From assembly GCA_036971475.1 (NCBI GenBank), contig JBAIZL010000001.1, positions 211,250,075 through 211,314,074 on the forward strand: 64,000 nt of DNA. The letters run 5' to 3'. A model generated the notes under the pieces. It was not told where the DNA came from, ran no database searches, and was given only the letters and a program-made list of their open reading frames with translations. The position numbers were made by a program, and so were the translations under genes. Positions 828 to 60,067 of this stretch are shown in pieces; position 1 is the stretch's first letter, and each line of letters starts with the position of its first letter. The stretch is from Prosapia bicincta (Eukaryota; Arthropoda; Insecta; Hemiptera; Cercopidae).

Positions 828-1175
828 CCAATAGCCTTATCTCTTTTCCCCTGACAGACTTATATAAACTATAATCACTCATATGCTCATGGAAACAATT
901 TATATATATATATATATCTTTAATCTGTGCATCTGTGTCATCTGAGGTCTACTCTACACAATCTGTGATTACAACTTATATTTATTTTATTTCATTCTCT
1001 CATATTTCTTTTTGTGTTTTCTCTTCGATTGATAAAGACCACTGTGTGGTTGAAATATATCATTGTTTAAGTGCTTTTATGTGTTTCTATTTCAAGACTA
1101 CAGTGTGGACTCTTACCAAGGTAAGTCTGTCAGTCTCCTAGTCCAAAAAATCTATATATATATATATATATAGAT
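828..1175 (+). repeat. PLE-E 3' UTR/terminal repeat ending in (TA)n
   Basis: This directly follows the PLE-E frame. It recurs inverted at about 43046-43350 and, in part, at 55849-55990 (minus), 56063-56216 (plus), 29975-30080 and 34612-34750. Shared landmarks are the AGTCTGTCAGTCTCCTAG block and a terminal (TA)n. Its presence both beside the ORF and as solitary copies identifies it as the terminal repeat (pLTR-like) of this PLE family. Confidence 0.75.
1025..1061 (+). ncRNA. Hammerhead-like ribozyme motif, PLE-E, variant core
   Basis: Core UUGAUAA (instead of CUGANGA), one extra A, stem II GACCAC/GUGGUU with a UGU loop, GAAA, then a self-complementary AUAU for stem III and the cleavage-site position. 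Stem I is weak, with only two clear pairs. It lies in sense orientation downstream of the PLE-E endonuclease frame. The related copy at 34612-34648 has the canonical CUGAAGA core, which supports the alignment. Activity is untested. Confidence 0.5.
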
Positions 1176-1192
1176 ATTTGTAGAAAGTGTAA

Positions 1193-1310
1193 AGTTAATA
1201 TATTACTATTGTAAATACTTTTATCCACTGCTAAGTGCAATAATTTTACCTTGGTAAAATTATTGCACTTAGCGGTGGATAAAAGTATTTACAATAGTAA
1301 TATATTAACT
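1193..1310. repeat. PLE-D terminal-repeat palindrome
   Basis: Two arms of about 58 bp, separated by 2 bp at 1251-1252, form an inverted repeat with a single noticed mismatch. The arm sequence recurs in palindromes at 35492-35572, 43813-44033 and 55404-55667. Unlike the last two, this copy lacks the central hammerhead-like segment. Confidence 0.8.
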
Positions 1311-1552
1311 ACATAAAGTCAGTGCAACGGAAAAATAATGGAAAACATAAAATATCAAGATATATATGCATATGTATATATATGTAAAACATATATATAG
1401 AAACTTTACCTTGGTAAAATTATTGCACTTAGCGGTGGATAAAAGTATTTACAATAGTAATATATTAACTTCATAAAGTCAGTGCAACGGAAAAATAATG
1501 GACAACGTAAAATATCAAGATATATATGCATATGTATATATATGTAAAACAT
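1251..1552. repeat. Direct duplication of PLE-D arm plus flank (about 145 bp)
   Basis: Bases about 1251-1395 are repeated at about 1408-1552 with few differences. Each unit runs from the GGTAAAATTATTGCACTTAG block through a TATGCATATG stretch. It appears to be a local tandem duplication of the terminal repeat and its flank. Confidence 0.75.
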
Positions 1553-1559
1553 ATATAGA

Positions 1560-3200
1560 AACACACACACACACTTATATGTTTCTGTAATATATACTAT
1601 GGTACTGTAATATATGTTTTTTTCTATGTACCTTTAATTTTATGAAGTTTAACTGGTGAAAGAGCTTGATTATGTTTAGCGAGCTTATTATTGGACAGAT
1701 GGTTCCTGGTGTCCTCCATCACCATGCTCTGTTTTCATTACAACTACTCACTTTTCCTTTAAGGCATTTCTACTTCTACATCCCTGTAATAGAGAAATGA
1801 ATTAAACATTTGAAACTCTTAATCAACAAAACGTTATGAGGAGTTATAAGGTTATTGAAAATAAGGTGAATCAATTTTCTATTTTCTCAATTTTCATATA
1901 TGACACTCAAAAATAATTTTAAACAAGGAAGATGTATTTTAAATATCCCAAACCATAAATAATGATTAAAACTTAAACTAAATATGATCATGAAAACATA
2001 GCGTCATTTTAGCAGTTTATTTTTTAAAGCAATTCTTCTAAAATTAACAGATTATTTTACATGTATATATTCGTACAAAGTATCTGGTTAGGATGGGTTT
2101 GGTCATAAAAAAATATATATTAAGTGTGATAATGTCAACTAAAGATTGGTAAAGTGAAGCAGTTAAGTCCTTTTAGTGTATGCATGGGAACTTGCATCAG
2201 GTTATTGAGAAATGGGTAAGACATTTTTATTCTCGTGCCCTACAATGAGATTTTTATTTTATGTAACTATACTGAAAATATAATTTAAAAAATACACATA
2301 ATTATCATTACTGAAGTTAACAGGTCTTTGTATTTGATGTTATCATTAATAAAGTTTTGGTATTGTAGTATTGAACCCAAAACTCATTTTTATTGCAAAA
2401 ACTCTTATTTAGTGATCCAGACAGACAGATGGCCAGCCTCCCAAAGAACAATGGTGATTTCCCAAAAGTTTACAATTTTAAAAACTCCTAACACTAACAT
2501 ATTAAAACATAAAATCACACTTTTCTTAGTTTTTACTGATATAATATCACATAATACCTTTAAGGAGACATTACAAACACTATTACATGCCAACACAAAA
2601 CATGTAATTTTATAAAAAAGTTATTCTAACATATGCCTAAAAACTTAGCAGAAAAACAAAAAAAGACCTGGGCTTTCTTGAGCAATGAGAATATAATTCT
2701 ATGCCGCAATATCTTTGAATAAATTGAACTGTGAGTGTAGATAACCTATTTCTTTACCACAATTCTATATCACAGGTACTAATGTTGAACAAATGGCTCT
2801 TTTCAATATAGAAAATGTTAATAAATTAATGCCACAAAAATTACACCGATCTCGTAAAACAAAATTCAATTGCTTAGTTTAATATTCAAAACAAACGAGA
2901 CACAAATTGTAAATATTGTGTTGTTTAGACAAATGTTCCAAACATCAGACAGCTTGACCATTTGTTGTTGTATATAAAATGTGGGTAAATTTGTAAATAA
3001 AATTAGTGAATTTATTTTAATCTTATGCAGCCATAAAACAGTTTTAAATTAAAAACTAGTGCTATTGTACAGCCTAAAAATGAGAATTGAGGTTAACACC
3101 TTTTCATACCATTTGTTATTGTAAATAACATTAATTAAATATCTTTTTCTCATTTTTGTTGATTCCACCTTTACGTGAGCTACTAGTTTTCACTAAACAC
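1560..3200. other. No gene recognised
   Basis: AT-rich sequence with short frames only. It has a (CA)n run at 1561-1574 and a short block near 2087-2115 resembling the inner part of the MITE at 8281-9110 (GGTTAGGATGGGTTTGGT). Nothing else could be assigned. Confidence 0.5.
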
Positions 3201-3201
3201 T

Positions 3202-3383
3202 TGTAAATATTTACAAACTTGCCTATAGTAGCACTTACTTATATTTGTTGAGGACGGCCGTTTCGGGAGATGTGTCCCATTGTCAACTCAGACCGTAACT
3301 CTGGAGACACAACTCCCAAAACGGCCGTCCTCAACAAATATAAGTAAGTGCTACTATAGGCAAGTTTGTAAATATTTACAAAT
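3202..3383. repeat. PLE-A terminal-repeat palindrome
   Basis: Inverted arms at about 3202-3261 and 3319-3383 share the CTATAGTAGCACTTACTT block and the GAGGACGGCCGT block found at 13.6, 16.7 and 49.9 kb. The left arm contains a full minus-strand hammerhead-like segment. The right arm is truncated inside it. Confidence 0.8.
3249..3290 (-). ncRNA. Hammerhead-like motif, PLE-A, variant core
   Basis: On the minus strand: stem I UGAG/CUCA, core UUGACAA plus one extra U, stem II GGGA/UCCC with a CACATC loop, GAAA, and a palindromic stem III ACGGCCGU ending in the GUC cleavage triplet. Positions 3 and 8 are U and A rather than C and G. Confidence 0.5.
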
Positions 3384-6070: not shown

Positions 6071-6072
6071 TA

Positions 6073-10150: not shown

Positions 10151-10215
10151 GAGGGTCTGAGTTGACAATGTGACATATCTTCCGAAATTGCCGTCCTCAA
10201 CTAATATGTTATTAT
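10151..10215 (+). repeat. PLE-A terminal fragment with decayed hammerhead-like motif
   Basis: GGTCTGAGTTGACAATG followed by TTCCGAAATTGCCGTCCTCAA matches the PLE-A terminal repeat. Stem II and stem III pairing are both damaged, so this is an old copy. Confidence 0.6.
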
Positions 10216-11673: not shown

Positions 11674-11967
11674 TTAATCATTTTTTGATTCATACGCTTT
11701 TCTATGACAACTCCAATTTGTAGTAGCAACACTCGCGGATGATGATGACTTTTCATTGAAACGCGTATGAGTCAATAAATGATTAATTTGTGAGTTGTGT
11801 GTACGTCTTTTATTTGTTTTATTTTCAGAGGAGACAAAAAGGTCAGCTTCGGTTTTAATCTCTAGATAAAATCTTCTAACAGTGCAGTTTTTGTGTTGTA
11901 CATCTTGAGGTTTTTTCTTATAAATTACACTTTTGTTATCGCGTGGCAATTCAATATTTAAAAACAC
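11674..11967 (-). CDS. Hypothetical ORF or exon, 97 codons, divergent from UPF0598
   Basis: An open frame with balanced codon use, including CG-containing codons (GCG, ACG, CGT) unusual for this AT-rich neighbourhood. It is charged and serine-rich (about residue 74 on: EKSSSSASV) and ends KAYESKND before TAA. The only start is GTG, so if real it is probably an exon rather than a whole gene. I recognise no domain. It lies about 120 bp from the putative UPF0598 start and points the other way, which would fit a shared promoter. A chance frame is quite possible. Confidence 0.25.
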   Translation of the reverse strand: MFLNIELPRDNKSVIYKKKPQDVQHKNCTVRRFYLEIKTEADLFVSSENKTNKRRTHNSQINHLLTHTRFNEKSSSSASVATTNWSCHRKAYESKND

Positions 11968-13611: not shown

Positions 13612-13767
13612 AATCACTTACAACTTTTTTTAAAAAATGTTTTAACTTGACTATAGTAGCACTTGTTGACAAAGGGACACATCTCCCGAAACGGCCGTCC
13701 TCAACAAAAAAAAGTAAGTGCTACTATAGGCAAGTTAAAACCTTTTTTTTTAAAAAAGTTGTAAGTT
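13612..13767. repeat. PLE-A terminal-repeat palindrome (truncated)
   Basis: Inverted arms (about 13612-13664 and 13708-13767) share CTATAGTAGCACTT and a poly-A/T-bearing outer segment. The plus-strand hammerhead-like segment (core UUGACAA plus A, stem II GGGA/UCCC, GAAA, stem III ACGGCCGU, GUC) lies between them at 13662-13703, but its 5' stem I strand has been lost at the junction. Confidence 0.7.
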
Positions 13768-16669: not shown

Positions 16670-16830
16670 TATTTATGTTTGTTGATTCCATCTTCACGTG
16701 AGCTACTAGTAATCACTAAACACTTTTAAATGTTTTAACTTGCCTATAGTAGCACTTACTTTTGTTTGTTGAGGACGGCCGTTTCGGGAGATGTGTCCCT
16801 TTGTCAACTCAGACCGTAACTGATTTCAAG
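16670..16830 (-). repeat. PLE-A 3' terminal repeat
   Basis: Contains the CTATAGTAGCACTTACTT and GAGGACGGCCGTTTCGGGAG blocks. It immediately follows the PLE-A endonuclease frame (minus strand), so this is the 3' end of that element. Confidence 0.8.
16770..16811 (-). ncRNA. Hammerhead-like motif, PLE-A, variant core, next to its ORF
   Basis: Same architecture as 3249-3290: stem I UGAG/CUCA, core UUGACAA plus extra A, stem II GGGA/UCCC, GAAA, palindromic ACGGCCGU, GUC. It lies 31 bp downstream of the endonuclease stop codon and on the same strand, as expected for a PLE-encoded ribozyme. Confidence 0.55.
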
Positions 16831-16841: not shown

Positions 16842-17754
16842 TTAGGGTGGGTGTGGGATATTTTGGTGGTGTGGGTGTATTTTGTGTGTATTAGGAGTTA
16901 TGATGTCAAAAAGTGCGTGTGAGTTGTAATGTAATTGTGTATTGAATATGTGTGTAGGGTGTAGTTTGAAGTGTCTGTATATTTCGTACTGTTCGGTTGT
17001 GTAGCGTTGGTTATTTCTGTGTTGTTTATGAAGAATTTGTAGGTTAGAAGTTATGTCTATGTAGTCATGTTTTGTGGAGGTGAGATGATCGGCACAGTTT
17101 GATTGGTAGTTATTGTTTTTTAGTGCTTTTATATGTTCTTGGTAACGTTTGTAGAAGGATCTCCCTGTCTGGCCTATGTAAAAACTGGGGCACGAACTGC
17201 AAGTTAGTTTGTAAACTCCAGTGGTGTTGTAAATTACGTCGATTTTGTTGTTGGGTTTAAATTGTTTGTTGAGAGTGTTGTGTGTGGAGTAAGCTATTTT
17301 GTAGTTGTATTTTCGTAGTGTGTTGGTTAGATTGTGAGTTTTGGATGATCTGTATGGTATTGATAAGTATTTTATGGGATTGTCATCTTGTGTGTTTGTT
17401 TTTGGTTTATTAGGTTTATTTTTAAGGCGGTTGTATAATTTGTCAATCATTGTTGGGTTGTATCTGTTCGTTTGTGCTGTATATTTTATGGTGTTTAACT
17501 CCTGGTAGTGTTCTTCTTTGTCTAACGATGTTTTAAGCAGGCGATATATATCTTTGTGTTGTAAGCAGCTAGTTTATGTTGGTGTGGGTGGTTTGAGGAG
17601 CTGTGTAGGGTCGTATTGGTACTAGTGGGTTTTTGGTATATGTTGAATTTATGTGTTTGTCTGTTCGTTTAATTGTAAGGTATAGGAAGTTGAGAGAGTT
17701 TTGTTGTTCTGTTTCGATGGTGTATGTTAGTTTTGGGTGTATGTACACTATCAA
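16842..17754 (-). pseudogene. PLE-A: RT C-terminus plus GIY-YIG endonuclease, broken
   Basis: Two frames on the minus strand. The upstream part (17754-17569) encodes a C-terminal RT segment (IHPKLTYTIETE, LTIKRTDKHIN). The downstream part (17450-16842, 202 codons) has GVYKLTCSSC and FYIGQTGRSF, the GIY-YIG core with its CxxC pair, then YQEHIKAL and EQYEIYRH (catalytic glutamate region). The reading frame is broken between 17569 and 17450, and the RT catalytic core is absent. This is a 5'-truncated, dead copy of the family also seen at 48.9-49.9 kb (plus). Confidence 0.85.
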
Positions 17755-23513: not shown

Positions 23514-23720
23514 TCACTTAAACAATAGTTTATGACTATCCGAACTTTATAATTAGTAAATTTGTTAAAACTTACTGAGACAGAATGTTTTCGATCGCTA
23601 TGTGCCGATCTTCATCAGTGTCTTCTGCTTGGAGATGTTGGGTCAAGCGGTGACGGTTTTAAAGGTAGGTTTTCGATAGCATAAAAGAGTATGTGTGATT
23701 TGTATTGTGTTTGTTCGTTT
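23514..23720 (-). repeat. PLE-C 3' terminal repeat
   Basis: Matches the terminal repeats at 44573-44786, 59460-59600 and 60000-60140 (AATCACTTAAACAATAG, TTGTTAAAACTTACTGAGAC). It follows the PLE-C endonuclease frame on the same strand. Confidence 0.8.
23577..23625 (-). ncRNA. Hammerhead-like ribozyme motif, PLE-C, canonical core
   Basis: On the minus strand: stem I AGACA/UGUCU, core CUGAUGA, one extra A, stem II GAUCG/CGAUC closing a GCACAUAG loop, GAAA, a short stem III (AACAUU, two A-U pairs) and a UC cleavage position. All canonical catalytic bases are present. The copy at 59528-59575 has GAUUG/CAAUC in stem II, a compensatory change. Confidence 0.7.
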
Positions 23721-24103
23721 CATATGTTTGTATTTTGTGTTTTTGTGTGTCTGTAAATTTCATATTGTTCTAGTGTGTTGAGATGTGGCCCTTTTTTGTT
23801 GATGTGTAGGATTTTTAAATTATGATAAATGTCTGTGTATTTGTGTCCTGTTTCTTTTAAGTGATTGTAAAATGTTGAGTTGGTGTTATGTTTGTGTTCT
23901 TCAACTCTTTGTTTAAAGCTGCGATCTGTTTGTCCAATGTAGAATTTGTTACAGTCGTCGCAGTTTATTTCGTATACGCCTGGTGCTTGTAGTTTATCTT
24001 TGTTGTTGGTGTTGTGTTGTATTTTGTATTTATTTCTTCTATTGCATGATTCCATCATTAACCCAGGATTTACATTACCGTACACAGTGTTCCTCCTGAC
24101 CAA
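23720..24103 (-). pseudogene. PLE-C: GIY-YIG endonuclease fragment
   Basis: 127 codons with GVYEINCDDC and FYIGQTDRSF (GIY-YIG with CxxC), then RVEEHKHN and EQYEIYRHTK. No RT is seen upstream (higher coordinates), so the element is 5'-truncated at about 24103-24110. A relative lies at 59600-59990 (plus). Confidence 0.85.
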
Positions 24104-25080
24104 ACAACAGAATCTACACCTGCTGGTCTATGATCAAATCAGGGTAAAAATTCCTCCACTCTCTCATCAAGTTGCATATTGACTTCCATCTTTAAACCAA
24201 AGTTAATCATAAAAGCTAAAAATATGGTGGAGTTACTACATATTTGATTTTTTAAAAAAACATATTGACCTCAAGGTCCAGCTCTAATAAAGTTTTAAGT
24301 AGCAAATCCCAATTTGTTTTAAGAATATGAAGTATACAATATCAGGAAAAAACTATTTTCATAACTTGAAGAATCTGAAAGTGGTACATTGTAAACTGTA
24401 ATAAGTTGTGTTTACCTTGCCATTTACCAGTTAATGCTACCATTGCTGAGAAACTTAAAGCATTTAGAGGTCTTTTATACAGGAACTCAGCTATAACCAA
24501 TAACTCTATAAAGGAAGTAGTTCAATGGACAGTCCAATCAACTTTAATTACCAATACAATTTGAACATGGTATACTGATTCACAAGTATCATGTATGAGC
24601 ATCTCTTAAAATATAATAAACTGTCATAGATGATAATCAAACAAAATAGTAGTTTGATATTGTTTATAAAGACAAACGTGAAGTCCCATCAGAGTTTTTA
24701 ATGACAAAAAAATAGGAAAAAAGCTAAGTGAAATTTGTAATTCTGTATTTGGTCATCACCAAGAAAAAATAAAATAAAAACTTAGTTTCATACAAACTTA
24801 AAAAGAACAAATTTGTTCTTGCTCTTTTAATAGTAAAGTATTAGATTTTTGTTTAATCAACAAGCAAATAGAACAAACAATAAGTTATAACATTTTATAA
24901 TATGACAAAAGGAAAGGTTGACATTATTAAAAGAATATGCTATTATTTAGTAGGAAAAGGATTCAATAAATAGTCAATTATGTGTAATCCACTATATGCT
25001 TATATAAACCTTTTGGAAATACAACGCTGACTTTTTTTAAAAGAGCTTTGATCAAGTTAAGTATAATGCAGAAAAGTGTA
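24104..25080. other. No gene confidently recognised
   Basis: Short plus-strand coding-like runs (for example KLKAFRGLLYRNSAITNN near 24455) suggest an old retroelement, possibly the 5' part of the LINE that follows. Frames are too broken to assign. Confidence 0.35.
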
Positions 25081-33100: not shown

Positions 33101-33485
33101 CTTTGAAGAGAGAGTATGTTGCCTTTCCTTCAAGCCAAAATTAAAACAGCTATCCTTTGAAGAGAGAGTATGTTGCCTTTCCTTCAAGCCAAAATTAAAA
33201 TAGCTATCCTTTGAAGAGAGAGTATGTTGCCTTTCCTTCAAGGCAAAAGTAAAATAGCTATCCTTTGAAGAGAGAGTATGTTGCCTTTCCTTCAAGCCAA
33301 AAGTAAAATAGCTATCCTTTGAAGAGAGAGTATGTTGCCTTTCCTTCAAGCCAAAAGTAAAATAGCTATCCTTTGAAGAGAGAGTATGTTGCCTTTCCTT
33401 CAAGCCAAAAGTAGCTATTCTTTGAAGAGAGAGTATGTTGCCTTTCCTTCAAGCCAAAAGTAGCTATTCTTTGAAGAGAGAGTAA
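30190..33485. repeat. 54-bp satellite array, about 61 units, higher-order structure
   Basis: The unit contains AGCTATCCTTTGAAGAGAGA and GTTGCCTTTCCTTCAAGCC. As 54 is a multiple of three and one minus-strand frame lacks stops, long frames arise (342, 306 and 396 codons repeating KERQHTLSSKDSYFTFGL). They have no start context and I treat them as satellite artefacts. Three variants alternate (AAAAGTAAAATAG, AAAATTAAAACAG, AACCAGAAGTAAAATAG). A 1-bp-deleted unit (GAGAGTTGTTGCC) marks higher-order copies near 30310, 31335 and 32252, 1025 and 917 bp apart (19 and 17 units, each less one base). Units at the right edge are 48 bp. Confidence 0.95.
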
Positions 33486-34611: not shown

Positions 34612-34648
34612 TTGACTGAAGAAGGTCATGTTGATCGAAATATTTCAA
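34612..34648 (+). ncRNA. Hammerhead-like ribozyme motif, PLE-E subfamily, canonical core
   Basis: Stem I UUGA/UCAA, core CUGAAGA (allowed at the free position 7), extra A, stem II GGUCA/UGAUC with a UGU loop, GAAA, self-complementary AUAU stem III. It aligns base for base with the variant at 1025-1061 (UUGAUAA core), showing the C3/G8 versus U3/A8 change within one family. The terminal block GTCTGTCAGTCTCCTATC lies downstream at 34724. Confidence 0.65.
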
Positions 34649-34818: not shown

Positions 34819-35053
34819 CTTGTAAATTCAAATATAATTCTTGTATTTGTATTTTGACTTTTGTTCTTTATTAATACACAAGAAAATCTATTGCGATATT
34901 TATATATATATATATATATATATAAAGAACATAAGTCAAAATACAAATACAAGAATTGTAATTGAATTTACTATTCAAAGCTTTTCGTTGGCTAACAGTA
35001 CCAACATCATCAGGAATATTAAACATTATTATTACACAAGAATACATATTGCG

Positions 35054-35058: not shown

Positions 35059-35098
<40 letters not shown>

Positions 35099-35119
35099 TA
35101 CGTTTTCTTATTTAATAAT

Positions 35120-35307
35120 TTAAAACAACATAGGTTATTCAAATACAAGAATATTTATTAATTTATATCCAAAGCTTTTCGTTGGTAAACAGTACCAACA
35201 TCATCAGGAATGAAAATTTTCATTCCTGATGATGTTGGTACTGTTTACCAACGAAAAGCTTTGGATATAAATTAATAAATATTCTTGTATTTGAATAACC
35301 TATGTTG

Positions 35308-35313
<6 letters not shown>
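35120..35313. repeat. PLE-B perfect palindrome, 97-bp arms, no spacer
   Basis: The centre lies between 35216 and 35217. I compared the arms base by base and saw no mismatch. Each arm carries a complete hammerhead-like motif (minus 35167-35211, plus 35222-35266). (TA)n tracts lie to the right (35313-35365) and to the left (35060-35093). Confidence 0.95.
35222..35266 (+). ncRNA. Hammerhead-like ribozyme motif, PLE-B (mirror copy at 35167-35211, minus)
   Basis: Stem I AUUC/GGAU (one G-U), core CUGAUGA, extra U, stem II GUUGGUA/UACCAAC, GAAA, palindromic AAGCUU, then U. All canonical catalytic bases are present. Confidence 0.7.
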
Positions 35314-35628: not shown

Positions 35629-35689
35629 ATAATGTGATATGAACTTCATTTACATTTTTTGGTATAAAATAAAAAATACCACAAAATTG

Positions 35690-36300
35690 TTTAAAGGTAG
35701 CAATATCAAATTCGCATATAATACCAATAACAAATTAATAAATATAATAAATAATAATAATAAAATTATTAATATGCATGAAAAAAACGGTGTATATAAA
35801 TATTAGAATGTGATTATTATAATAAAGATTATATAGGACAAACTAAGAAAAATCTTAAAGATAGATATAAAGAGCATTTCAATGCATATAAAAAGCCAGA
35901 CATTTATAAATCAATTTTTGCTAGTCATTGTATTAAAAATAATCACATATTTCCTAGTATAGATAATATGATGATTGTAAAAGAAATTAACAAAGGCCTG
36001 AGAATGAATATGTATGAGGCTTTAGAAATACATTAATATAATACTAATAATGAGTTGATAAATGAACAAATACAAGTAAAATCTAAATTTGATACTATAT
36101 TCAGTGTTTGTAATGTTGGGGCAGGAAAGTAATAGTTTGACAACGTTGTAATAAATTTGTCAATGCTGTTTGTAGCATCTAGTTTGCAAATGTATGGTTG
36201 ATGTTAATTAAGTCTCTAGTATTCCTGAGGATGTTGGTACTGTTTGCCAATGAAAAGCTTTGAATTGTAGATTCAATAAATTATTCTTGTATTTGTAAAT
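35690..36300 (+). pseudogene. PLE-B: upstream partial copy (EN C-terminus and terminal repeat)
   Basis: Reading across frameshifts, the plus strand shows the end of the PLE-B protein: a KNGVYKY-type start, DYIGQTKKNLKDRYKEHF (GIY-YIG), ASHCIKNNHIFPSIDNM and NKGLRMNMYEALEI, ending near 36132. It is followed by a terminal repeat with a hammerhead-like motif and a (TA)n tract, after which a longer PLE-B copy starts. The two copies are thus head-to-tail, as is common in PLEs. Confidence 0.8.
36221..36265 (+). ncRNA. Hammerhead-like ribozyme motif, PLE-B, upstream of main ORF
   Basis: Stem I AUUC/GAAU, core CUGAGGA (position 7 is free), extra U, stem II GUUGG/CCAAU, GAAA, AAGCUU stem III, then U. 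It is in sense orientation about 130 bp before the PLE-B frame. Confidence 0.6.
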
Positions 36301-36368: not shown

Positions 36369-36391
36369 TACATTTAAAACTAGCATTTTTT

Positions 36392-38516
36392 ATGGATATA
36401 ACAAAATGGGAAGACAAATTTAATAAAATTAATATCCTTTTGTTCAATTATAGACAAAGAAAAGGGAACACTCTAACCAAAAAACTAGATATATTAAAAA
36501 TGAACAAAGATAAAAATACTGAAGTAATCATACATCATAAGTTTCACCCCAATTTTGTTAATTTAACAAATACTAAATTCAGCCAAAATGAAATAAAAAT
36601 TTTAGAAAATAATAATAAAGTCAACCTTAAAAAAGATATAAAAAGAAATATTGATACAATAATAATAGATACTGAATTGGCGATCAATAAATTAAAAGTA
36701 GAGGAACAAGAAAATATGCGAATAAAAACATCACATGAAATAATAAAGTTAATTAAAAATAACAAAACCAATCATACACACATAAAACAATACTCGCAAA
36801 TTCATCAAATTAAACAAAAATTACAAACTAATGATCTTATTATGACAAATGCTGATAAAGGTAATGCTGTAGTTATTATTGATAAACAAGAACATATAAA
36901 TAAAACTGAAAATTATATATATAAAAACCAATATACAGAAATAAATAAAGATCTCACAGACAAATATCAAAATGAAATAAAAAATATAATAAAAACATCA
37001 TCTAAATTATTTAATCAAAAATATACTAATAATTACATAAATGAGAATCCTAAAATTCCAAGATTAAATTTACTAATTAAATTGCACAAAGAAGATAAAC
37101 CAATTAGGCCATTAGTTAATTTTACAACTGCTCCTTCTTATAAAATTTCAAAATATTTGGCTTTATCACTTAAAGATAAGGTAAAATTAAATAATACTCA
37201 TAATATAAAAAACTCGATTGAGCTTATTGACAAATTAAAAGATATTAAAATTGATAATAACACAAAATTAATATCATTTGATGTTACTAACATGTATAAT
37301 AACATACCTATAATGAAAACACTTGAAATAATAAAAAAATAATATAGATACATTTGAAAAAGATAACACATTAACACAAGAAATAATAAATACATTAAAA
37401 ATCATATTAAATCAAAATTATTTTTTATATAATAATAAAATTTATAAACAAAAGGATGGATTAACAATGGGCTCTTCAATGTCCAGCATATTATCGGAAA
37501 TATTTTTACAAAATATAGAAATTGAAATAGATAAGATTATTAAAACATATGATCAAAATGGACACTGGTTTAGATATGTAGATGATGGATTATACATATC
37601 AAATAATAATGGTTTAAATATTGACAAAATATTAAAATTTATAATTAATATACACGAAAATATAAAATTTACTCATGAATTTAAATCAAAAAATAAACTA
37701 AATTATTTAGATATTACAATTACTAGAAATAAAGAATCATTTGAATATAATATATATAGAAAACCAACGCAGACAAATCAAATAATACCTAATTATTCAA
37801 ATCATCCATACAACCAAAAAATGGCAGCGCTTTATAATTTACTACATAGAATGCACAAAATACCAATGAACTTAAATGATCAAATAAAAGAGAAAAATAT
37901 AATATATCAAATTGGTTTAGAAAATGGATATAAAAGAAAAACTATAGATAAATTAAATAATAATATAATAAGAAAACAGAAACTCGAAAATAACTTTGTT
38001 TCTAATAAGAGAGAAAATATTTGGACAACTTTTACATTCACTGGTAACGAAATAAATAAAATTACAAGATTATTTAAAGAAACAAATTTACAAATTACAT
38101 ATAGAACTGATAATAAAATTAAAAATTTAATAAACAATAACAAAAATCAAAATAATATGCACGAAAGAAATGGAGTATATAATATAAAATGTCAAACTTG
38201 TAATAAATTATATGTAGGGCAAACAAAAAAGAAATTAAAGGAAAGATACAAAGAACATTTAAACGCTTATGTCAAACCAAACATATACAAATCAAATTTA
38301 GCTACACATTGTATTAATAATGGACACGAGTTTCCGGAAATAGAAAATATGAAATTAATAAAAGAATTAAATAAAGGATTAAAAATGAATATATTTGAAA
38401 CATTGGAAATTTATAAGCATAAAGTTAAAGACAAATTAATTGATGAACAAATTCAAGTGAGATCAAGGCACCAAACTATTTATAAAGTCATTGATGTTAT
38501 AGAAAAATTTACATAA
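36392..38516 (+). pseudogene. PLE-B: near-complete Penelope-like RT-endonuclease ORF with one frameshift
   Basis: Two frames (36392-37342, 316 codons; 37467-38516, 349 codons) form one protein of about 700 residues, broken by an apparent 1-bp change in the A-run at 37334-37340; the frame stays open between them. RT landmarks in order: TNADKGNAVVIIDK, PRLNLLIKLHKEDKPIRPLV, LISFDVTNMYNNIP (motif A aspartate), GLTMGSSMSSILSEI (motif B) and FRYVDDGLY (catalytic YVDD). LNYLDITITR and YRKPTQTNQIIP follow. The C-terminus holds GVYNIKCQTC, LYVGQTKKKL and YKEHLNAY (GIY-YIG endonuclease with CxxC pair) and ETLEIYKHK. The start is a TTG on the track; the first ATG is at 36393-36395 (out of that codon register) or 36509, so the true start is uncertain. 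All catalytic motifs look intact; this is the best-preserved PLE in the window. Confidence 0.85.
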
Positions 38517-38594: not shown

Positions 38595-38640
38595 TTTCCT
38601 GAAGATGCTGGTACTATTTTATTGGCGAAAAGCTTTGAAT
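38595..38640 (+). ncRNA. Hammerhead-like ribozyme motif, PLE-B, downstream of main ORF
   Basis: About 80 bp after the PLE-B stop, sense strand: core CUGAAGA, extra U, stem II GCUGGU/AUUGGC (with G-U pairs), GAAA, palindromic AAGCUU, then U. Stem I is short (UUC/GAA). Confidence 0.6.
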
Positions 38641-42198: not shown

Positions 42199-42280
42199 AT
42201 CAAATGTGTTTTCCTGTTACAATATTTTTAAGATCAAATAATACACACAAATACAGGAATATTTAATTTATTGAACAATA

Positions 42281-42327
42281 AACTCAAAGCTTTTCGTTGG
42301 TTTACATTACCAACATCTTCAGGAGTT
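42281..42327 (-). ncRNA. Hammerhead-like ribozyme motif, PLE-B (left arm)
   Basis: Mirror copy of 42884-42930: stem I AACUC/GAGUU, core CUGAAGA, extra U, stem II GUUGGU/ACCAAC, GAAA, AAGCUU, U. Confidence 0.7.
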
Positions 42328-42883
42328 ACAATAGCAAGAATGATAAAAGAACTGTCTAACAAACATGAATCTACTAGATAAAGCAATACACAGTTGCCAA
42401 ATCTATTACAATATTGCCAAACCTATTCCACTGCTGCCACAACATTATATACATTGAACAAAGTATGGTATTTAGAACGTATTTGAATTTGTTCATCTAT
42501 TAATTTGTTATTAATATTATGTTTGTAAATTTCAAATGCTTCACATACGTTCATTTTTAACCCTTTACTTACTTCTTTTAAAGTAAATATAAAGTAAAGT
42601 ATTTTCCTAATATAAATAATATGAAAATTATAAAAGAAGTAAATAAAGGGTTAAAAATGAACGTATGTGAAGCATTTGAAATTTACAAACATAATATTAA
42701 TAACAAATTAATAGATGATCAAATTCAAATACGTTCTAAATACCATACTTTGTTCAATGTGTATAATGTTGTGGCAGCAGTGGAATAGATTTGGCAATAT
42801 TGTAATAGATTTGGCAACTGTGTATTGCTTTATCTAGTAGATTCATGTTTGTTAGACAGTTCTTTTATCATTCTTGCTATTGT

Positions 42884-42930
42884 AACTCCTGAAGATGTTG
42901 GTAATGTAAACCAACGAAAAGCTTTGAGTT
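42884..42930 (+). ncRNA. Hammerhead-like ribozyme motif, PLE-B (right arm)
   Basis: Stem I AACUC/GAGUU has five Watson-Crick pairs that differ from AUUC/GGAU at 35222 and UAUUC/GAAUA at 34972, a covariation that supports a functional fold. Core CUGAAGA, extra U, stem II GUUGGU/ACCAAC, GAAA, palindromic AAGCUU, U. Confidence 0.75.
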
Positions 42931-42980
42931 TATTGTTCAATAAATTAAATATTCCTGTATTTGTGTGTATTATTTGATCT

Positions 42981-42983
<3 letters not shown>

Positions 42984-43046
<63 letters not shown>
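42984..43046. repeat. (TA)n microsatellite
   Basis: A TA tract of about 63 bp between the PLE-B palindrome and a minus-strand PLE-E terminal repeat. Confidence 0.95.
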
Positions 43047-43048
<2 letters not shown>

Positions 43049-43350
43049 TTTTTTGGACTAGGAGACTGACAGACTTACCTTGGTAAGAGTCCACTCTGTA
43101 GTCTTGAAATAGAAACACATAAAAGCACTTAAACAATGATACATTTCAACCACACAGTGGTCTTTGTCAATCGAAGAGAAAACACAAAAAGAAATATGAG
43201 AGAATGAAATAAAATAATTGTAATCACAGATTGTGTAGAGTAGAAATCAGATGTCACAGATGCACAGATTAAAGATATATATATATTGTTTCCATGAACA
43301 TATGAGTGATTATAGTTTATATAAGTCTGTCAGGGGAAAAGAGATAAGAC
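43047..43350 (-). repeat. PLE-E 3' terminal repeat, solitary
   Basis: Inverted copy of about 830-1152, including the AGTCCAAAAAATCT end, the TCTGTCAGTCTCCTAG block, and the stretch up to CTTATCTCTTTTCCCCTGAC. Contains a hammerhead-like motif at 43138-43174. Confidence 0.85.
43138..43174 (-). ncRNA. Hammerhead-like motif, PLE-E, variant core
   Basis: Minus strand: core UUGACAA plus extra A, stem II GACCAC/GUGGUU, GAAA. Same variant as 1025-1061 apart from the free position 7 (C for U). Confidence 0.5.
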
Positions 43351-43768: not shown

Positions 43769-43812
43769 TTGATATTTAACGTTATCCATTGTTTTTCCGT
43801 TGCACTGACTTT

Positions 43813-44028
43813 ATGAAGTTAATATATTACTATGTAAGTAATTTTATCCACCATTAAGTGCAATAATTTTACCTTGAGTGATGAGGCACCTTTCGGTCGT
43901 TGACCATTGTCGAATCACTCGACTTGAGTGATTCGACAATGGTCAACGACCGAAAGGTGCCTCATCACTCAAGGTAAAATTATTGCACTTAATGGTGGAT
44001 AAAATTACTTACATAGTAATATATTAAC

Positions 44029-44033
<5 letters not shown>
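43813..44033. repeat. PLE-D palindrome with two hammerhead-like motifs
   Basis: 108-bp arms with a 5-bp spacer (43921-43925) and no mismatch noticed. (TA)n lies on both sides (43698-43766; 44032-44069). No PLE-D coding sequence occurs in the window; I assign it to PLEs by its structure and surroundings only. Confidence 0.9.
43926..43970 (+). ncRNA. Hammerhead-like motif, PLE-D, variant core (mirror at 43876-43920, minus)
   Basis: Stem I GAGUGAU/AUCACUC (7 pairs), core UCGACAA plus extra U, stem II GGUC/GACC with an AAC loop, GAAA, stem III AGG/CCU with a UG loop, UC cleavage position. Positions 3 and 8 are U and A; position 4 is C instead of U. Confidence 0.5.
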
Positions 44034-44070
<37 letters not shown>

Positions 44071-44572: not shown

Positions 44573-44786
44573 TTATTAATCACTTAAACAATAGTTTATG
44601 ACTATCCGAACTTTAAATTTAGTAAATTTGTTAAAACTTACTGAGACAGAACGTTTTTGATCGCTATGAAGACACTGATGACGATCGGCACATAGCGATC
44701 AAAAACGTTCTGTCTCAGTAAGTTTTAACAAATTTACTAAATTTAAAGTTCAGATAGTCATAAACTATTGTTTAAGTGATTAATAA
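44573..44786. repeat. PLE-C terminal-repeat palindrome
   Basis: 96-bp arms with a 22-bp spacer (44669-44690). The spacer and right arm hold a full plus-strand hammerhead-like motif. The left arm stops at the stem II loop, so the inverted copy was joined inside the ribozyme. Confidence 0.9.
44670..44715 (+). ncRNA. Hammerhead-like motif, PLE-C, with damaged GAAA
   Basis: Stem I AGACA/UGUCU, core CUGAUGA, extra C, stem II GAUCG/CGAUC, then AAAA where GAAA is expected (loss of the catalytic G12), palindromic AACGUU, UC. Probably inactive. Confidence 0.6.
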
Positions 44787-47589: not shown

Positions 47590-47590
47590 G

Positions 47591-48200: not shown

Positions 48201-48235
<35 letters not shown>

Positions 48236-48850: not shown

Positions 48851-50035
48851 TGATTCCATCTTCACATGAGCTACTAGTTTTCACTAAAAACACTTGTAAA
48901 AATTACAACTTGCCTACAGTGGTATTTACTTAATGTTTGTATATTTCGTATTGTTCGGTAATGTATCGTTGATTATTTTTGTATTGTTTATGAAGAATTT
49001 GTAGGTAAGAGTGCACATATTTTTAAAACATCTTAATTTCATACACCCAAAATTAACATACACCATCAAAACAGAACAAAACAACTCACCTAACTTCTTG
49101 GATCTTACACTTAAACGAACAGACAAACAGATACATAAATTCAACATTACCAAAAACCAACCAATACCATTCATAACTCCTCAAACCACCCACAACAACA
49201 TAAACTTGCTGCTTACAACACCATGATATATCACCTGTTTAAAACACCGTTAGACAAAGAAGAACACAACCAAAAATTAAACACCATAAAATATATAGCA
49301 AAAACCAATGGATACAACACAACAATGATCGACAAATTTTACAACCGCCTGAAAAATAACTCAAATACAAATACACAACATGACAAACCCATAAAATACT
49401 TAACAATACCATATAGATCATCCATAACTCATACTATCTAACACACTATGAAAATATAATTACAAAATAGTCTACTCCAAACACAACACTCTCAATAAAC
49501 AATTTAAGCCCAACAACAAAATATTCAACACTGCTGATAACTACAAACTAACTTGCAGTTTGTGCCTCAATTTTTACATAGGCCAGACAGGGAGGTCATT
49601 TTACACACTACCAAGAACATATACACGCACTAACAAACAAAAACACTCAATCAAACTTTGTTGAACATTTCATATCCACAAAATATGACTACACAAACAT
49701 AACACCCAACCTACAAATTCTTCATAAAGAATACAAAAATAACGAATGATAAACAACTGAACAATATGAAATATACAAACATTTCAAACTACACCATACA
49801 TAGATACTCAACACCCAATTACATTGTAACTCACACACACTTTTCGACATCATAACTCCTAATACTCACCAAAATACACCCACACCCCCACTATAATATT
49901 CCACCCCTATCCTAACCTACAAAAACCTTGAGATCAGTTACGGTCTGAGTTGACAATGGGACACATCTCCCGAAACATGGCCGTCCTCAATAAATATAAG
50001 TAAGTGCTACTATAGGCAAGTTGTAATATATTTAC
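48850..50035 (+). pseudogene. PLE-A: second copy, frameshifted
   Basis: Plus-strand pieces in order: IHPKLTYTIKTEQNNSPNF (RT C-terminus), a segment with IYHLFKTPLDKEEHNQKLN, TMIDKFYNRLKN (49335), broken GIY-YIG core (CLNFYIGQTGRSF region near 49565), and EQYEIYKHF (49760). The terminal repeat follows at 49935-50035. Frames break repeatedly. It is the same family as 16842-17754 in opposite orientation. Confidence 0.8.
49946..49989 (+). ncRNA. Hammerhead-like motif, PLE-A, variant core
   Basis: Stem I UGAG/CUCA, core UUGACAA plus U, stem II GGGA/UCCC, GAAA, then ACAUGGCCGU (two inserted bases in stem III) and GUC. Sense and downstream of the PLE-A coding relic. Confidence 0.5.

Positions 50036-55336: not shown

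Positions 55337-55340
<4 letters not shown>
54991..55340 (+). repeat. LINE-C 3' UTR, first part
   Basis: A TTATTGTTGT-rich tail, interrupted at 55341 by a (TA)n/PLE cluster and continuing at about 56895. Confidence 0.7.

Positions 55341-55401
<61 letters not shown>
55341..55401. repeat. (TA)n microsatellite
   Basis: A TA tract of about 60 bp at the left edge of the PLE hairpin cluster. Confidence 0.95.
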
Positions 55402-55403
<2 letters not shown>

Positions 55404-55404
<1 letters not shown>

Positions 55405-55667
55405 GTTAATATATTACTATTGTAAGTGATTTTATCCACCATTAAGTGCAATGATTTTACCTTGAGTGATGAGGCGCCTTTCGGTCACTTGACCATTGTC
55501 GAATCACTGATTATTTTTTCTTCAGTGAACATCCGCACCAGAAAAATTAAGAAAAAATAATCAGTGATTCGACAATGGTCAAGTGACCGAAAGGCGCCTC
55601 ATCACTCAAGGTAAAATCATTGCACTTAATGGTGGATAAAATCACTTACAATAGTAATATATTAACT
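55404..55667. repeat. PLE-D palindrome with two hammerhead-like motifs
   Basis: About 118-bp arms with a 28-bp spacer (55522-55549). Motifs at 55464-55508 (minus) and 55563-55606 (plus). Arms match the palindrome at 43813-44033 with scattered changes. Confidence 0.9.
55563..55606 (+). ncRNA. Hammerhead-like motif, PLE-D, variant core (mirror at 55464-55508, minus)
   Basis: Stem I AGUGAU/AUCACU, core UCGACAA plus U, stem II GGUCA/UGACC (one pair longer than at 43926), GAAA, fully palindromic stem III AGGCGCCU, UC. Confidence 0.5.
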
Positions 55668-55848
55668 ATATAAAGTCAGTGCAACGGAAAAACAATAGAT
55701 AACGTAAAATATCAAGAATATATCACCATATTTAAAATATATATATATAAATTTTTTTTTTTTTAACAACAGGTTATTCAAATACAAGCATATTATTTAT
55801 TTATATTCATATAAAAGTTCATATTTATTAAATTTATATATATATAGA

Positions 55849-56216
55849 TTTTTTGGACTAGGAGACTGACAGACTTACCTTGGTAAGAGTCCACTCTGTA
55901 GTCTTGAAATAAAAGCACTTAAACAATGATATATATCAACCACACAGTGGTCTTTGTCAATCGAAGAGAAAACACAAAAAGAAATATGAGAGAATGAAAT
56001 AAAATAATTGTAAAATAAAATACATTCAATAAAATACATACAATAAAATACATAAATAAATTCTCTCATATTTCTTTTTGTGTTTTCTCTTCGATTTACA
56101 AAGACCACTGTGTGGTTGAAATATATCATTGTTTAAGTGCTTTTATGTGTTTCTATTTCAAGACTACAGAGTGGACTCTTACCAAGGTAAGTCTGTCAGT
56201 CTCCTAGTCCAACAAA
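55849..56216. repeat. PLE-E terminal-repeat palindrome
   Basis: Inverted arms of about 140 bp (about 55849-55993 and 56063-56216). The spacer contains three AATAAAATACAT-type units. Hammerhead-like segments at 55928-55964 (minus, GAAA changed to GATA) and 56091-56127 (plus, core G5 changed) are both damaged. Confidence 0.85.
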
Positions 56217-56247
56217 TCTAAATAATCTTTACCAACCAAAACTAACC

Positions 56248-56576
<329 letters not shown>

Positions 56577-56579
<3 letters not shown>

Positions 56580-56838
56580 AAAACAACACAGGTTATTCAA
56601 ATACAAGAATATTTATTATTTTATATCCAAAGCTTTTCGTTGGCAAACAGTACCAACATCATCAGGAATGAAAATTACAATTTTTTAAGCTTTTCGTTGG
56701 CAAACAGCTGTTTGCCAACGAAAAGCTTAAAAAATTGTAATTTTCATTCCTGATGATGTTGGTACTGTTTGCCAACGAAAAGCTTTGGATATAAAATAAT
56801 AAATATTCTTGTATTTGAATAACCTGTGTTGTTTTAAA
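56577..56838. repeat. PLE-B palindrome, 131-bp arms, no spacer
   Basis: The centre is between 56707 and 56708. Each arm holds a complete hammerhead-like motif (56625-56669 minus; 56746-56790 plus: AUUC/GGAU stem I, CUGAUGA, extra U, GUUGG/CCAAC, GAAA, AAGCUU) plus a partial second copy of the AAGCTTTTCGTTGGCAAACAG segment meeting at the centre. No mismatch noticed. Confidence 0.95.
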
Positions 56839-56894
56839 TTATTAAACAAGAAAACGTATTTTATATTTATATATATATATATATATATATATAG

Positions 56895-57040
56895 TTGTTT
56901 AAATTTTGTTTGTTTTTTATGTCTTATAATTTTAGTGTTATTTAAATTTTAATTAAATATTTTACTTTATCTAAAATTTTGCTTTTGTTTTGTTGCTGAT
57001 TGGTGATGATAACCATAACTGGTTTTTCGCCAGGAAAAAA
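56895..57040 (+). repeat. LINE-C 3' UTR, terminal part
   Basis: Resumes the T-rich tail and ends GATTGGTGATGATAACCATA and CTGGTTTTTCGCCAGG, matching the end of the solitary tail at 46655-47035. Confidence 0.7.
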
Positions 57041-57560
57041 GTCCAACAACAGTCTTTACCATATTTACTGCACAATAATATCGTCTTTCTTTTGACCTTT
57101 TACTCCCAGGACATTTTTCCTCCTTAACTATAATTGATTTAGTTGGTAATGCCCGTTTTGTCTGCGTTATAAATGTTTTTAGGTTCATATATTGCAATAA
57201 AATCTTGCAGATTTGTTTTCCACTCATTTACAACACGTTAATCTGCACCTATTGATTCACCACTGATCTCATTCCAGACAATGTTATGTCTCTTCTTGAA
57301 ACTGTCCAGCCATCCTGTAAACATTTTAAACGAGATTTGGTTTCTGCAAGAGCTTCACTTTTTTACCATCGGATCCAAAATTTGTATATTTTTCGATCTT
57401 GCACAGATAAACCACTTCCAAACTATAGCATTAATTTCTTCATTAAAAGTTAAAGTTGCTTTTTTCTTCATCTATCCATTTCCCTTCAACTACTCAACTG
57501 TATAATTATCCGGACCTTGTTTCTAGGAACTGAGGACAATTTAACTATTCATTTGATCAT
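57041..57560 (-). pseudogene. Tigger/pogo (DDE_1) transposase, N-terminal half
   Basis: Minus strand, in order: a CENP-B-type HTH remnant (SDGKKVKLLQ), GWLDSFKKRHNIVWNEISGE, VVNEWKTNLQDFIAIYEPKN, IYNADKTGI (first catalytic aspartate of the DDE triad), then EKCPGSKRSKERRYYCAVNM. This joins logically to 51482-50398 on the same strand, with about 5.6 kb of LINE-C and PLE DNA between. In-frame stops make it dead. Confidence 0.8.
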
Positions 57561-58258
57561 GCACTCTCTATGTTCTGTTTCCTCGTTTAACAAATTATGC
57601 TCTATACAAAGTAAACAACAATAATGCCTATGTAACTGTCTCGAAACCAGTAGTTTTCCACATTGTACAAGTTTTACTGTATCATACTTATTAATAAAAA
57701 TTTGGATAATCCATCCGTAAGTTTTAAAATAATCACTACCTGTTAAGATATTAAAATCTTTTGAATAGAAGGGATGAATAATTTTATGGATGGACTGAGA
57801 TTAATTCTGAGTATTTTAGAAATTATAAAATATGCCCTTTTAATTTATGTACCAAGTTTTTTTTAAAGGTATAGACATGCTTCTAACAAAATTGATAATA
57901 AAACTTACTTTTTAATAACATTGTGATAGTTATCAAGCAAATCATGACAATATCAACCAAGGAAACTACTTTTATTATTAATAATTGATTATGTTAATAA
58001 CTATTCAAAGTAATGATGCTTACTAGTTATAAACATGAGTTTTTTTACCTTCTCTATTGCCTCAATTACCTTTCATAATTTTTAACAATAAAAAAAGTTG
58101 TTCTGTTTCACAAAAAAGTAAAAGAAACATAAGCAGTCCTACAATGACATAAAAAGTATATTTCTGTTTTAATAAAAAACAATAAAAAACTGAATTACTG
58201 ATCATAATATAGTTGATTTGCTTCATTTAAGTAAAAAGTGGATTATTTTTTTTTCCAG
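57561..58258. other. No gene recognised (end of UPF0598 intron 2)
   Basis: AT-rich intronic DNA ending in the polypyrimidine tract TTTTTTTTTCCAG that precedes exon 3. Confidence 0.6.
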
Positions 58259-58695
58259 ATAAGACATTTTTGGTCTTTTTCTTCAAACGTTTAAGGCTGA
58301 ACAATACAGGTCGATACGAAAAAGATTTTCCATTTTTTTCTCCTTGTGGGAAAGAACGTAATTTTATTAGGTGTGATGACACACCAATTGTATACACACA
58401 TGTAGCTGAAAAAAATGAAAAAGATATATTTTGCTATGGTCATGCAGGAAATGAATTACATCAAGAGTTTCAACCTGACCACATTTATATGGACACAAAC
58501 ACTGGCAGAGTTTATCATCCAGCACCAGAATCTGGAGGGTCGGTTGGTTTAATTCAGTCAAAACTAGCCATTGATTTTAGTCGCCACTTTACATTTAACA
58601 ATGGAGAGGGTAAAAGTCCAACACATTTTTCTTGGAAAGAAAATGATTATATTTTAAATGCAGAATGGTATAAGAAATTGAGAACCAGTGTTTAG
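58259..58695 (+). CDS. C8orf82: UPF0598 (C8orf82 homologue), terminal coding exon
   Basis: Begins after CCAG with AT, completing a GAT codon with exon 2, then KTFLVFFFKRLRLNNTGRYE, FPFFSPCGKERNFIRCDDTP, a variable middle, and GRVYHPAPESGGSVGLIQSK before TAG. These are the most conserved blocks of UPF0598 (human: RYEAAFPFLSPCGRERNFLR and LYHPAPE). The three exons give about 210 codons against 216 in human. No stop or frameshift is seen, so the gene looks intact and under selection. Its biochemical role is not known. A weak ATTAAA lies near 58905; no AATAAA follows closely. Confidence 0.95.
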
Positions 58696-58853
58696 TATTT
58701 AAACAATTATTTATAGTTAATAGAGTAGATAATATTTACCCTTATAAATAACTCAATTTATTGAAGTAGTAATTGAAATATAATTTACAATTCTTTCACA
58801 TTAGTAATGTGAACTTGTGTGTGTATGTGTGTGTGTGTCATTTTTCATTTTGA
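58696..58853. other. Probable UPF0598 3' UTR and (GT)n microsatellite
   Basis: AT-rich DNA after the stop codon with a TGTGTGTATGTGTGTGTGTG run at about 58817-58838. Confidence 0.5.
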
Positions 58854-59345
58854 AGTACACCGGAACTCCAATTATCCAAACTCTGACTATCCGAATTGCT
58901 TTTCGATTAAAAAAAAAATTATAAGACAAACGTGATTTCCAAATTATTTTTTTGGCTACATATGCTATTGGGCTTTACTCCGTAAAGCTAGTGTAGGCAC
59001 AGCACAAACATTATTTGGATGCAGTTCTGTATGGTTGTGGTTGTTCTAAATGAGAATTAGTTGTCTTATCTTTAGCAGATAAACTAATTATAGATCAATT
59101 AGATAAAGGCGATACAACTAAACAGTTGACTGAGATGTATAGTGTTGGACAATCAACGATTTCACATTAAAAGGATCAAACCAACATTTTAAAACTTTGT
59201 TCCATTGCTTGAAAACGAAGATGAAAGTTCTAGAAAATCAATGAAGGCGTCAGAAGACAAAGAATTAGAAGATACCATTTTCAAGTTGTTTTCTGGAACA
59301 ACATGCTATGGGAAAATCAATTTCAGGTCCAATTATTTGTGAAAA
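58854..59345 (+). pseudogene. Second Tigger/pogo relic: terminal repeat and HTH N-terminus
   Basis: Starts with a TIR-like GTACACCGGAACTCCAATTA, TCCAAACTCTGACTATCCG (pogo-type ends carry ATTATCCGAAC). From about 59075 the plus strand reads LSLADKLIIDQLDKGDTTKQ and LTEMYSVGQSTISH, the CENP-B/psq-type helix-turn-helix of Tigger transposases, then decays. No DDE region follows. Confidence 0.7.
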
Positions 59346-59527
59346 AGCTAAGATTTCAGAAACTTGAAAACAATATAAAACTAAAAAGATATTTATTTCC
59401 ATTTGCAACATACATACAGTATTCTTGAATTTTGTAGTCCATTACGTTCGGTGAATCTTATTAATCACTTAAACAATAGCTTATGACTATCCGAACTTTA
59501 ATTTTAGTAAATTTGTTAAAACTTACT

Positions 59528-59575
59528 GAGACAGAAATTTTTCGATTGCTATGTGCCAATCTTCATCAGTGTCCT
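59528..59575 (-). ncRNA. Hammerhead-like ribozyme motif, PLE-C, with covarying stem II
   Basis: Core CUGAUGA, extra A, stem II GAUUG/CAAUC (versus GAUCG/CGAUC in other copies), GAAA, short A/U stem III, UC, stem I GACA/UGUC. The paired change in stem II keeps the helix. Confidence 0.65.
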
Positions 59576-60021
59576 CTGCTTGGAGATGTTGGGTCAATAC
59601 AAAATGTTGGTTACAGTAAAAAATACAAGACAACACCAACATTAAAGATAAACTACAATCACCAGGCCTATACAAACTGAACTGCGACGAACGTAACAAA
59701 TTCTACATTGGACAAACAGATCTCAGCTTTAAACAAAGAGTCGAGGAACACAAACAGAACACCAATTCAACATTTTACAATTAAGTAAAAGAAACAGGAC
59801 ACAAATACACAGATATTTACCATAAACTAGAAATCCTACACATCAACAAAAAAGGACCAGATCTCATCACACTAGAACAATATGAAATTTACAGACACAC
59901 AAAAACACAAAGTACAAACATATTAAAAGAACAAACGCAATACAAATCACACATACTATTTGATACTTTCGAAAACCTACCTTTAAAACAGTCACCGATT
60001 GACCCAGCATCTCCAAGCAGA

Positions 60022-60067
60022 AGACACTGATGAAGTTCGGCACATAGCGATCGAAAACGTCCAGTCT
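60022..60067 (+). ncRNA. Hammerhead-like motif, PLE-C, partly decayed
   Basis: Core CUGAUGA and GAAA retained; stem II GUUCG/CGAUC has one mismatch; stem III and the cleavage site (ACGUCCAGUC) are altered. Confidence 0.5.

Follow-up and report, generated by a model that had tools for sequence, protein, structure and literature searches.

In a 64-kb stretch of the 2.2-Gb genome assembly of the insect Prosapia bicincta (C79:211250075-211314074; here the window), we identified 19 hammerhead-like loci associated with Penelope-like elements (PLEs), each with exactly one extra base between the catalytic core and stem II. With three further families found elsewhere in the genome, the motifs form eight families (A-H) that are best read as minimal type I hammerhead ribozymes of Penelope-like retroelements in one eukaryotic genome, in which the strand between stems I and II would have 8 nt rather than 7, with an unpaired A or U at position 10, between A9 and pair 10.1-11.1. 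Stem III would be a single A15.1-U16.1 pair closing a palindromic loop, hence the monomer is expected to be weak, and two copies in a tandem transcript could pair through the palindrome into a double hammerhead with two active sites, which would cut after H17 and free unit-length RNA. The extra base would already have been present in the common Penelope ancestor. We put the probability of this identity, of the dimeric action and of the shared ancestry, taken jointly, at about 0.8. The feature is real and regular, and is mostly explained by known parts; since the letter at that spot is known from a plant viroid, it would seem to be a fixed trait of the family, and not a ribozyme of a new type. 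What seems to be new is the extent and uniformity of the base within one genome, with A or U at position 10, and an element of family D whose frame is open and whose core departs from the usual in two ways (U3-A8 and C4).

Hammerhead-like motifs in the window and their predicted fold

A previous reading made from the letters of the window (the sequence-only reading) had listed 27 places in five families (A-E), all said to fit a hammerhead with one extra base, and had proposed a covariance scan with the Rfam models and a custom descriptor allowing an inserted base. We read all 27 places individually, and scanned both strands with a descriptor that asked for a C-G or U-A 3-8 pair, YGA and A9, 0-3 bases before stem II, a stem II of at least 4 pairs, GAAA, a short stem III, UH and a stem I of at least 3 pairs. 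All 19 strict loci belong to the 27. Each has three helices around the core together with GAAA and UH before the cleavage site and is open at stem I, and in every intact copy (19/19) one unpaired base stands between the core and stem II, as had been claimed, at a place where the usual hammerhead consensus has no unpaired base between A9 and pair 10.1-11.1. The core is a full CTGANGA in 12 loci and has U3-A8 instead of C3-G8 in the other 7. The remaining 8 of the 27 copies are decayed, for reasons judged by eye; the claim that all copies fit is therefore true of the intact ones only.

Strict descriptor matches (window coordinates, strand):
3249..3290, minus: family A, core TTGACAA, extra T
16770..16811, minus: family A, core TTGACAA (U3-A8), extra A, loop III CGGCCG
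49946..49989, plus: family A, extra T, 2-nt insertion in loop III
34972..35018, minus: family B, CTGATGA, extra T, loop III AGCT
35167..35211, minus: family B, arm of an inverted pair
35222..35266, plus: family B, arm of an inverted pair
36221..36265, plus: family B, with an endonuclease relic on one side and the next open reading frame on the other
38596..38639, plus: family B, 3' of reverse transcriptase-endonuclease (RT-EN) reading frames
42281..42327, minus: family B, inverted pair
42884..42930, plus: family B, inverted pair
56625..56669, minus: family B, inverted pair
56746..56790, plus: family B, inverted pair
23578..23623, minus: family C, CTGATGA, extra A
59529..59574, minus: family C, extra A, loop III AATT
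43876..43920, minus: family D, core TCGACAA (U3-A8, C4), extra T, loop III GGTGCC
43925..43971, plus: family D, inverted partner of the 43876 copy
55465..55508, minus: family D, loop III GGCGCC
55563..55606, plus: family D, inverted partner of the 55465 copy
34612..34648, plus: family E, CTGAAGA, extra A, 2-nt stem III loop

Decayed copies, read by eye, with no strict match:
10158..10199, plus: family A, broken stem II
13662..13704, plus: family A, stem I lost at an inverted junction
44670..44714, plus: family C, GAAA changed to AAAA, extra base C
60022..60066, plus: family C, mismatch in stem II
1025..1070, plus: family E, TTGATAA, stem I of about two pairs
43138..43180, minus: family E, stem I of about two pairs
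55928..55970, minus: family E, GAAA changed to GATA
56091..56135, plus: family E, core G5 lost

Found by a relaxed scan, absent from the sequence-only reading:
11731..11772, plus: family G (loop III CGCG), decayed, core CGGATGA, one extra base; intact relative in L018

As a control, the window was shuffled 60 times in 1-kb blocks with dinucleotides kept. No match of the CTGANGA form was found in these shuffles, and the wider core matched 8 times in total, spread over gaps 0-3. Chance as the origin of the motifs was rejected on this basis (a mean of 0.13 matches per 64 kb in shuffles versus 19 in the window). A gap of 0, 2 or 3 bases before stem II was likewise rejected, as no such match, strict or relaxed, was present in the window, in loci L001-L008 or in a 200-kb sample of the 404-Mb contig C79 (twenty 10-kb stretches in 10-Mb steps between 5 and 195 Mb).

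The pairing of stem II leads to the same spacing. If one extra base is assumed, its first four pairs form in 15/15 representatives, a result that is partly built in, since the descriptor that selected them asked for stem II at one gap or another (the variety of pair types is free of this); if none is assumed, the first pair forms in 0/15 (A-C, U-C or U-U), and if two are assumed, in 7/15. Stem I, stem II and core pair 3-8 each show at least 2 pair types between families with pairing kept (15-17 representatives), and the helices are supported by covariation across families, in representatives taken with a pairing descriptor. In alignment A4 (MAFFT, 17 sequences), the 3' arm of stem I was misaligned, so four pairs were counted. 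Here pair 3-8 is C-G in 13 sequences and U-A in 4, pair 10.2-11.2 has three Watson-Crick types, and cells paired, cells changed on both sides and the covariation score were all above 500/500 shuffles, with 100% of the cells paired versus 72% for the best slid version. U3-A8 replaces C3-G8 in families A, D and H.

Of 14 representatives, 12 have a perfectly palindromic loop III, and none of the eight families lacks a copy of this kind; the two exceptions are ACAT in a family C copy, which is not palindromic, and GGTGCC in a family D copy, which is palindromic only with G-U pairs. Position 10 is A or U in the representatives of all eight families. For A, B and D, the homodimer predicted by minimum free energy (MFE) takes the form of a double hammerhead (in B, A14 is also paired to U17).

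Penelope-like elements that carry the motifs

The motifs of A, B, C and E lie on the sense strand, 3' of the Penelope endonuclease. The sequence-only reading had placed them just downstream of it, which holds for the attached relics of these families, with the reservation that the attached copies at 1025 (E) and 60022 (C) are decayed. The family F motif likewise lies 3' of the endonuclease on the sense strand (L019, L027). In family G, an endonuclease relic was found 1.9 kb downstream of the motif (L018), and no coding region was seen near the single intact copy of family H. With family D, described below, six families (A-F) are tied to Penelope coding regions. The coding features of the window are as follows:
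1..795, plus: family E C-terminal coding region, nearest to P0066 (a different Penelope-like branch), without Pfam match
16842..17573, minus: family A GIY-YIG endonuclease frame, assigned by similarity, without Pfam match
23720..24127, minus: family C GIY-YIG endonuclease (Pfam PF01541)
35666..36117, plus: family B endonuclease relic, 5' of the 36221 motif
36386..38516, plus: family B Penelope-like RT-EN in two overlapping frames, with a break near 37335-37342
48921..49890, plus: family A coding relic, 5' of the 49946 motif
59551..59994, plus: family C coding relic, 5' of the 60022 motif

Family D had been taken for a family with no coding relic. On contig C8, eight plus-strand copies of its motif are spaced 2,681-2,699 bp apart, and the unit examined (L037) belongs to a tandem Penelope element of 2.7 kb. 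Its open frame of 858 codons (851 from the first Met) contains RT and GIY-YIG regions; an orphan non-coding family was therefore rejected. The two motifs read in this element are identical, and the TGA stop of the frame lies within stem I (L037:2855-2860), where ribozyme and coding sequence overlap. A tandem arrangement of ribozyme copies was seen in the two families examined for it, in D with these eight copies and in B with the motifs at 36221 and 38596, which flank one coding region.

In B and D, RT is fused to a C-terminal GIY-YIG endonuclease, and both parts of the protein can be aligned with Penelope-like proteins; the proteins of A, C and E were seen as C-terminal pieces only. The proteins of A, B, C and D match one another. 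That of E best matches P0066 (33% over 200 residues), and matches the other families weakly, D at about 1e-5 and the rest worse; from these pairwise matches the families appear to span two branches of PLEs. The families had been called unrelated in sequence, which is true of their motifs and not of their proteins, and the supposed recurrence of the extra base in unrelated families turns out to be its presence in homologous Penelope-like elements. As the A-E proteins are homologous, one shared origin of the base is simpler than five.

A splice-donor-like GTAAGT or GTAAAA was observed directly 3' of stem I in families A, C and D (e.g. 16770, 23578, 43971 and L037:220-290). In family D, by eye, the putative donor joined to an AG just before the long frame would read in frame.

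Another possible explanation is that the extra U serves translation, with A9-U10-G10.1 as the AUG that starts the Penelope frame, comparable to the start codon at stem II of the lizard element PAc. The triplet is indeed ATG in the U10 copies that have G10.1. However, there is no ATG at this place in C, in E or in 79 of the 100 family A matches listed (A10), H lacks G10.1, the unspliced frame of the remaining copies closes after 3-16 codons, and the long frame of family D has its own downstream ATG. We consider this explanation very improbable, and as a general cause of the extra base it was rejected, being absent from the A10 families and giving short frames elsewhere.

No Penelope relatives were found in viral contigs. 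Eight loci were returned from genome contigs of GTDB; one of them (L029) has an RT/GIY-YIG frame and no hammerhead, and looks like a eukaryotic contaminant. When the eight were scanned with a loosened descriptor, three matches came up at two places (L031 and L035); their stem III stretches are very long, and we took them as chance.

Copies across the genome and other features of the window

In the 200-kb sample, all 13 descriptor matches had one extra base. Three families new to the list are among them: F and G, with TGTACA and CGCG as loop III, and H, whose single intact copy has GTTAAC. When the window and 28 loci were scanned with relaxed settings, 45 motifs appeared, each with a gap of 1. 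From the 43 strict matches in the same set, 10 lie in L001-L008, which were fetched with the family B pattern, and were excluded from unbiased counts. One strict match with an unusual core, at 8598 in L015, is not among the 13 of the sample and is probably due to chance.

We then counted family patterns over the whole assembly, all counts being lower bounds. The exact family B pattern with one base at position 10 occurs at least 18,974 times, in 174 of which the base is not T; without this base it has 3 exact matches, and a control with a one-base deletion in loop II has 2. The family B 37-mer has at least 34,452 places with up to 3 mismatches. With up to 2 mismatches, family A with the extra base has at least 19,038, family C at least 11,006 and family D at least 5,492, which gives about 70,000 places for the four patterns together. 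Without the extra base, family A has 93 matches at up to 2 mismatches, of which 10 are exact and several others are deletions within the GGG of stem II. The reversed control patterns of A, B, C and D had no match each. Among the 100 exact matches listed for each family, position 10 was, by eye, 79 A and 21 T in A, 98 A and 2 G in C, and 100 T in D. The copy counts show that the extra base was present in the source elements.

Divergent inverted motif pairs (minus then plus) that adjoin (TA)n were observed at 35094-35312, 42222-42989, 43812-44034 and 56573-56842, and the 100 family B places listed genome-wide contain, by eye, 12 divergent pairs less than 90 nt apart and no convergent pair. Such pairs would fit a target site cut in TA-rich DNA, at which both ends prime reverse transcription. 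Several Rfam microRNA matches below the gathering score coincide with palindromes of the window (e.g. 56659-56756 and 35182-35253), and are probably due to the inverted repeats. The palindrome at 1215-1288, by eye, shares the family D tail and has no hammerhead; it overlaps two 160-bp tandem copies (1245-1557). Apart from these, the window contains about 61 copies of a 54-bp tandem repeat (30192-33484), with long repetitive open frames on the minus strand, and an open frame at 58231-58695 that matches Pfam DUF4505 (PF14956, E 3e-59) and is probably a host gene or a copy of one.

Known hammerheads and the place of the extra base

The extra base is not without precedent: the (+) hammerhead of chrysanthemum chlorotic mottle viroid (CChMVd) has A10 between A9 and G10.1 (PMC3705267). 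It differs in having contacts between loops 1 and 2, and it is a single case and not a trait of a retroelement family. Changing A10 to U raised the rate 3-4-fold, and C or G was strongly detrimental (PMC3705267). Regarding the core, Perreault et al. 2011 describe several natural hammerheads that have U3-A8 by covariation in place of C3-G8 (PMC3088659), from a search that dropped matches with a changed core or with mispairs next to it unless activity had been measured; the same replacement is found here in families A, D and H, in A and D with thousands of copies. The C4 of family D likewise has a counterpart in a natural hammerhead with U4 changed to C, and self-cleavage of a viroid hammerhead was unaffected by it (PMC9608096).

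Double hammerheads with palindromic loop III are described from Penelope elements (PMC6466107), whose known dimeric minimal hammerheads need this palindrome as ours would (PMC6155905, PMC7761336, PMC6466107), and their role has been called a mystery still (PMC7761336). They self-cleaved at 3-25 mM Mg2+ in earlier work (PMC11167929). The type I hammerheads of newt and axolotl share the single-pair stem III and the palindromic loop, and their dimers cleave efficiently (PMC7229834); on the other hand, they occur outside Penelope elements, in repeats of the satellite or retrozyme type, and their loops 1 and 2 make tertiary contacts. What distinguishes the present motifs from the known Penelope hammerheads is the base between A9 and stem II in all intact copies of eight families, although the alignments of 2014 and 2017 may show the same. 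The Penelope hammerheads were reportedly defined in papers of these two years, the later one by Lunse, Weinberg and Breaker. In the literature searched we found no description of an extra base in them, which these defining papers may contain. Taken together, the observation of the sequence-only reading is partly confirmed and its interpretation partly supported, its description of minimal type I hammerhead-like structures tied to Penelope-like elements having stood.

Several points weigh against reading the motifs as active dimeric ribozymes with a useful extra base. The Rfam hammerhead models gave no match in the window at a limit of E = 5, and none in 42840-42980 with the limit raised to E = 10. 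Two of the five covariation measures of A4 were not above shuffles (pairs changed on both sides, 330/500; further pair types, 497/500), the core of family D departs from CUGANGA at positions 3, 4 and 8, and 4 of the 5 family E copies in the window are decayed. In the predicted dimers of E, G and 2/3 F copies the intermolecular stem III forms and the core pairs differently, and the predicted MFE dimer of C, H and 1/3 F copies is not a double hammerhead. Published data on the base are also unfavourable: in CChMVd, A10 moderately lowers the trans-cleaving rate (PMC3705267), and weak activity accompanies the extra nucleotide in a viroid hammerhead, which cleaved better once it was deleted (PMC11014351), so A10 in C, in E and in most of A may cost activity. 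Finally, the lizard PAc hammerhead cleaved only when the protein of the element was there, and insertion in vitro went ahead without cleavage, hammerhead mutants still inserting (PMC11167929). Since cleavage of PAc depends on protein, an assay on naked RNA could be falsely negative. Many of the copies seen here keep the whole hammerhead and a short tail, which implies that the inserted RNA was uncut at that hammerhead, in agreement with PAc, which reportedly uses mainly unprocessed RNA as its substrate (PMC11167929).

The silence of Rfam, together with the broken copies (8/27), would also suit inactive relics or hairpin-rich terminal repeats that merely resemble hammerheads. This we regard as very improbable, because the motifs far exceed the shuffles, stems and the 3-8 pair vary together between families, each family has a copy with palindromic loop III, and both D motifs in the tandem open-frame element are identical.

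Reading the motifs as Penelope hammerheads leaves two accounts of why the base persists. It may be a neutral ancestral quirk, tolerated and inherited with no functional benefit, a view that competes with a function of the base and not with the identity of the motifs, and to which we give a little under even odds. It agrees with the homology of the A-E proteins and with the lowered rate of A10 in the viroid. It also agrees with the counts, which give no sign of selection at the site, since B copies that lack the base are no scarcer than those that lack a loop base (3 versus 2); moreover, the copies of a family come from few source elements, so the counts are non-independent and no proof of selection, and both points add to those listed above. 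Against neutrality, the base is kept by families that differ at nearly every other non-core position, and A or U in 8/8 families matches the in vitro ranking in which C and G are strongly detrimental (PMC3705267), a match that is merely suggestive in AT-rich DNA. The other account, which we hold tentatively, is that the base was kept since the ribozyme tolerates A or U there and, having no tertiary contacts between stems I and II, benefits from U. It is rather doubtful that Penelope hammerheads as a class have an 8-nt catalytic strand, with an ancestral and functionally kept A/U10 that compensates for the missing stem I-II contacts, and act only as dimers; the reduced rate of the viroid with A10 speaks somewhat against it.

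Should the extra base prove general, descriptors or models that place stem II directly after CUGANGA may miss Penelope ribozymes, a possible example being the absence of Rfam matches in the window as against the roughly 70,000 places in the genome, and if the catalytic strand is truly of 8 nt, searches with a 7-nt core would miss active ones. With a shared extra base but different stems, different 3-8 pairs and either A or U at position 10, the eight families offer a natural test set for the workings of minimal dimeric hammerheads.

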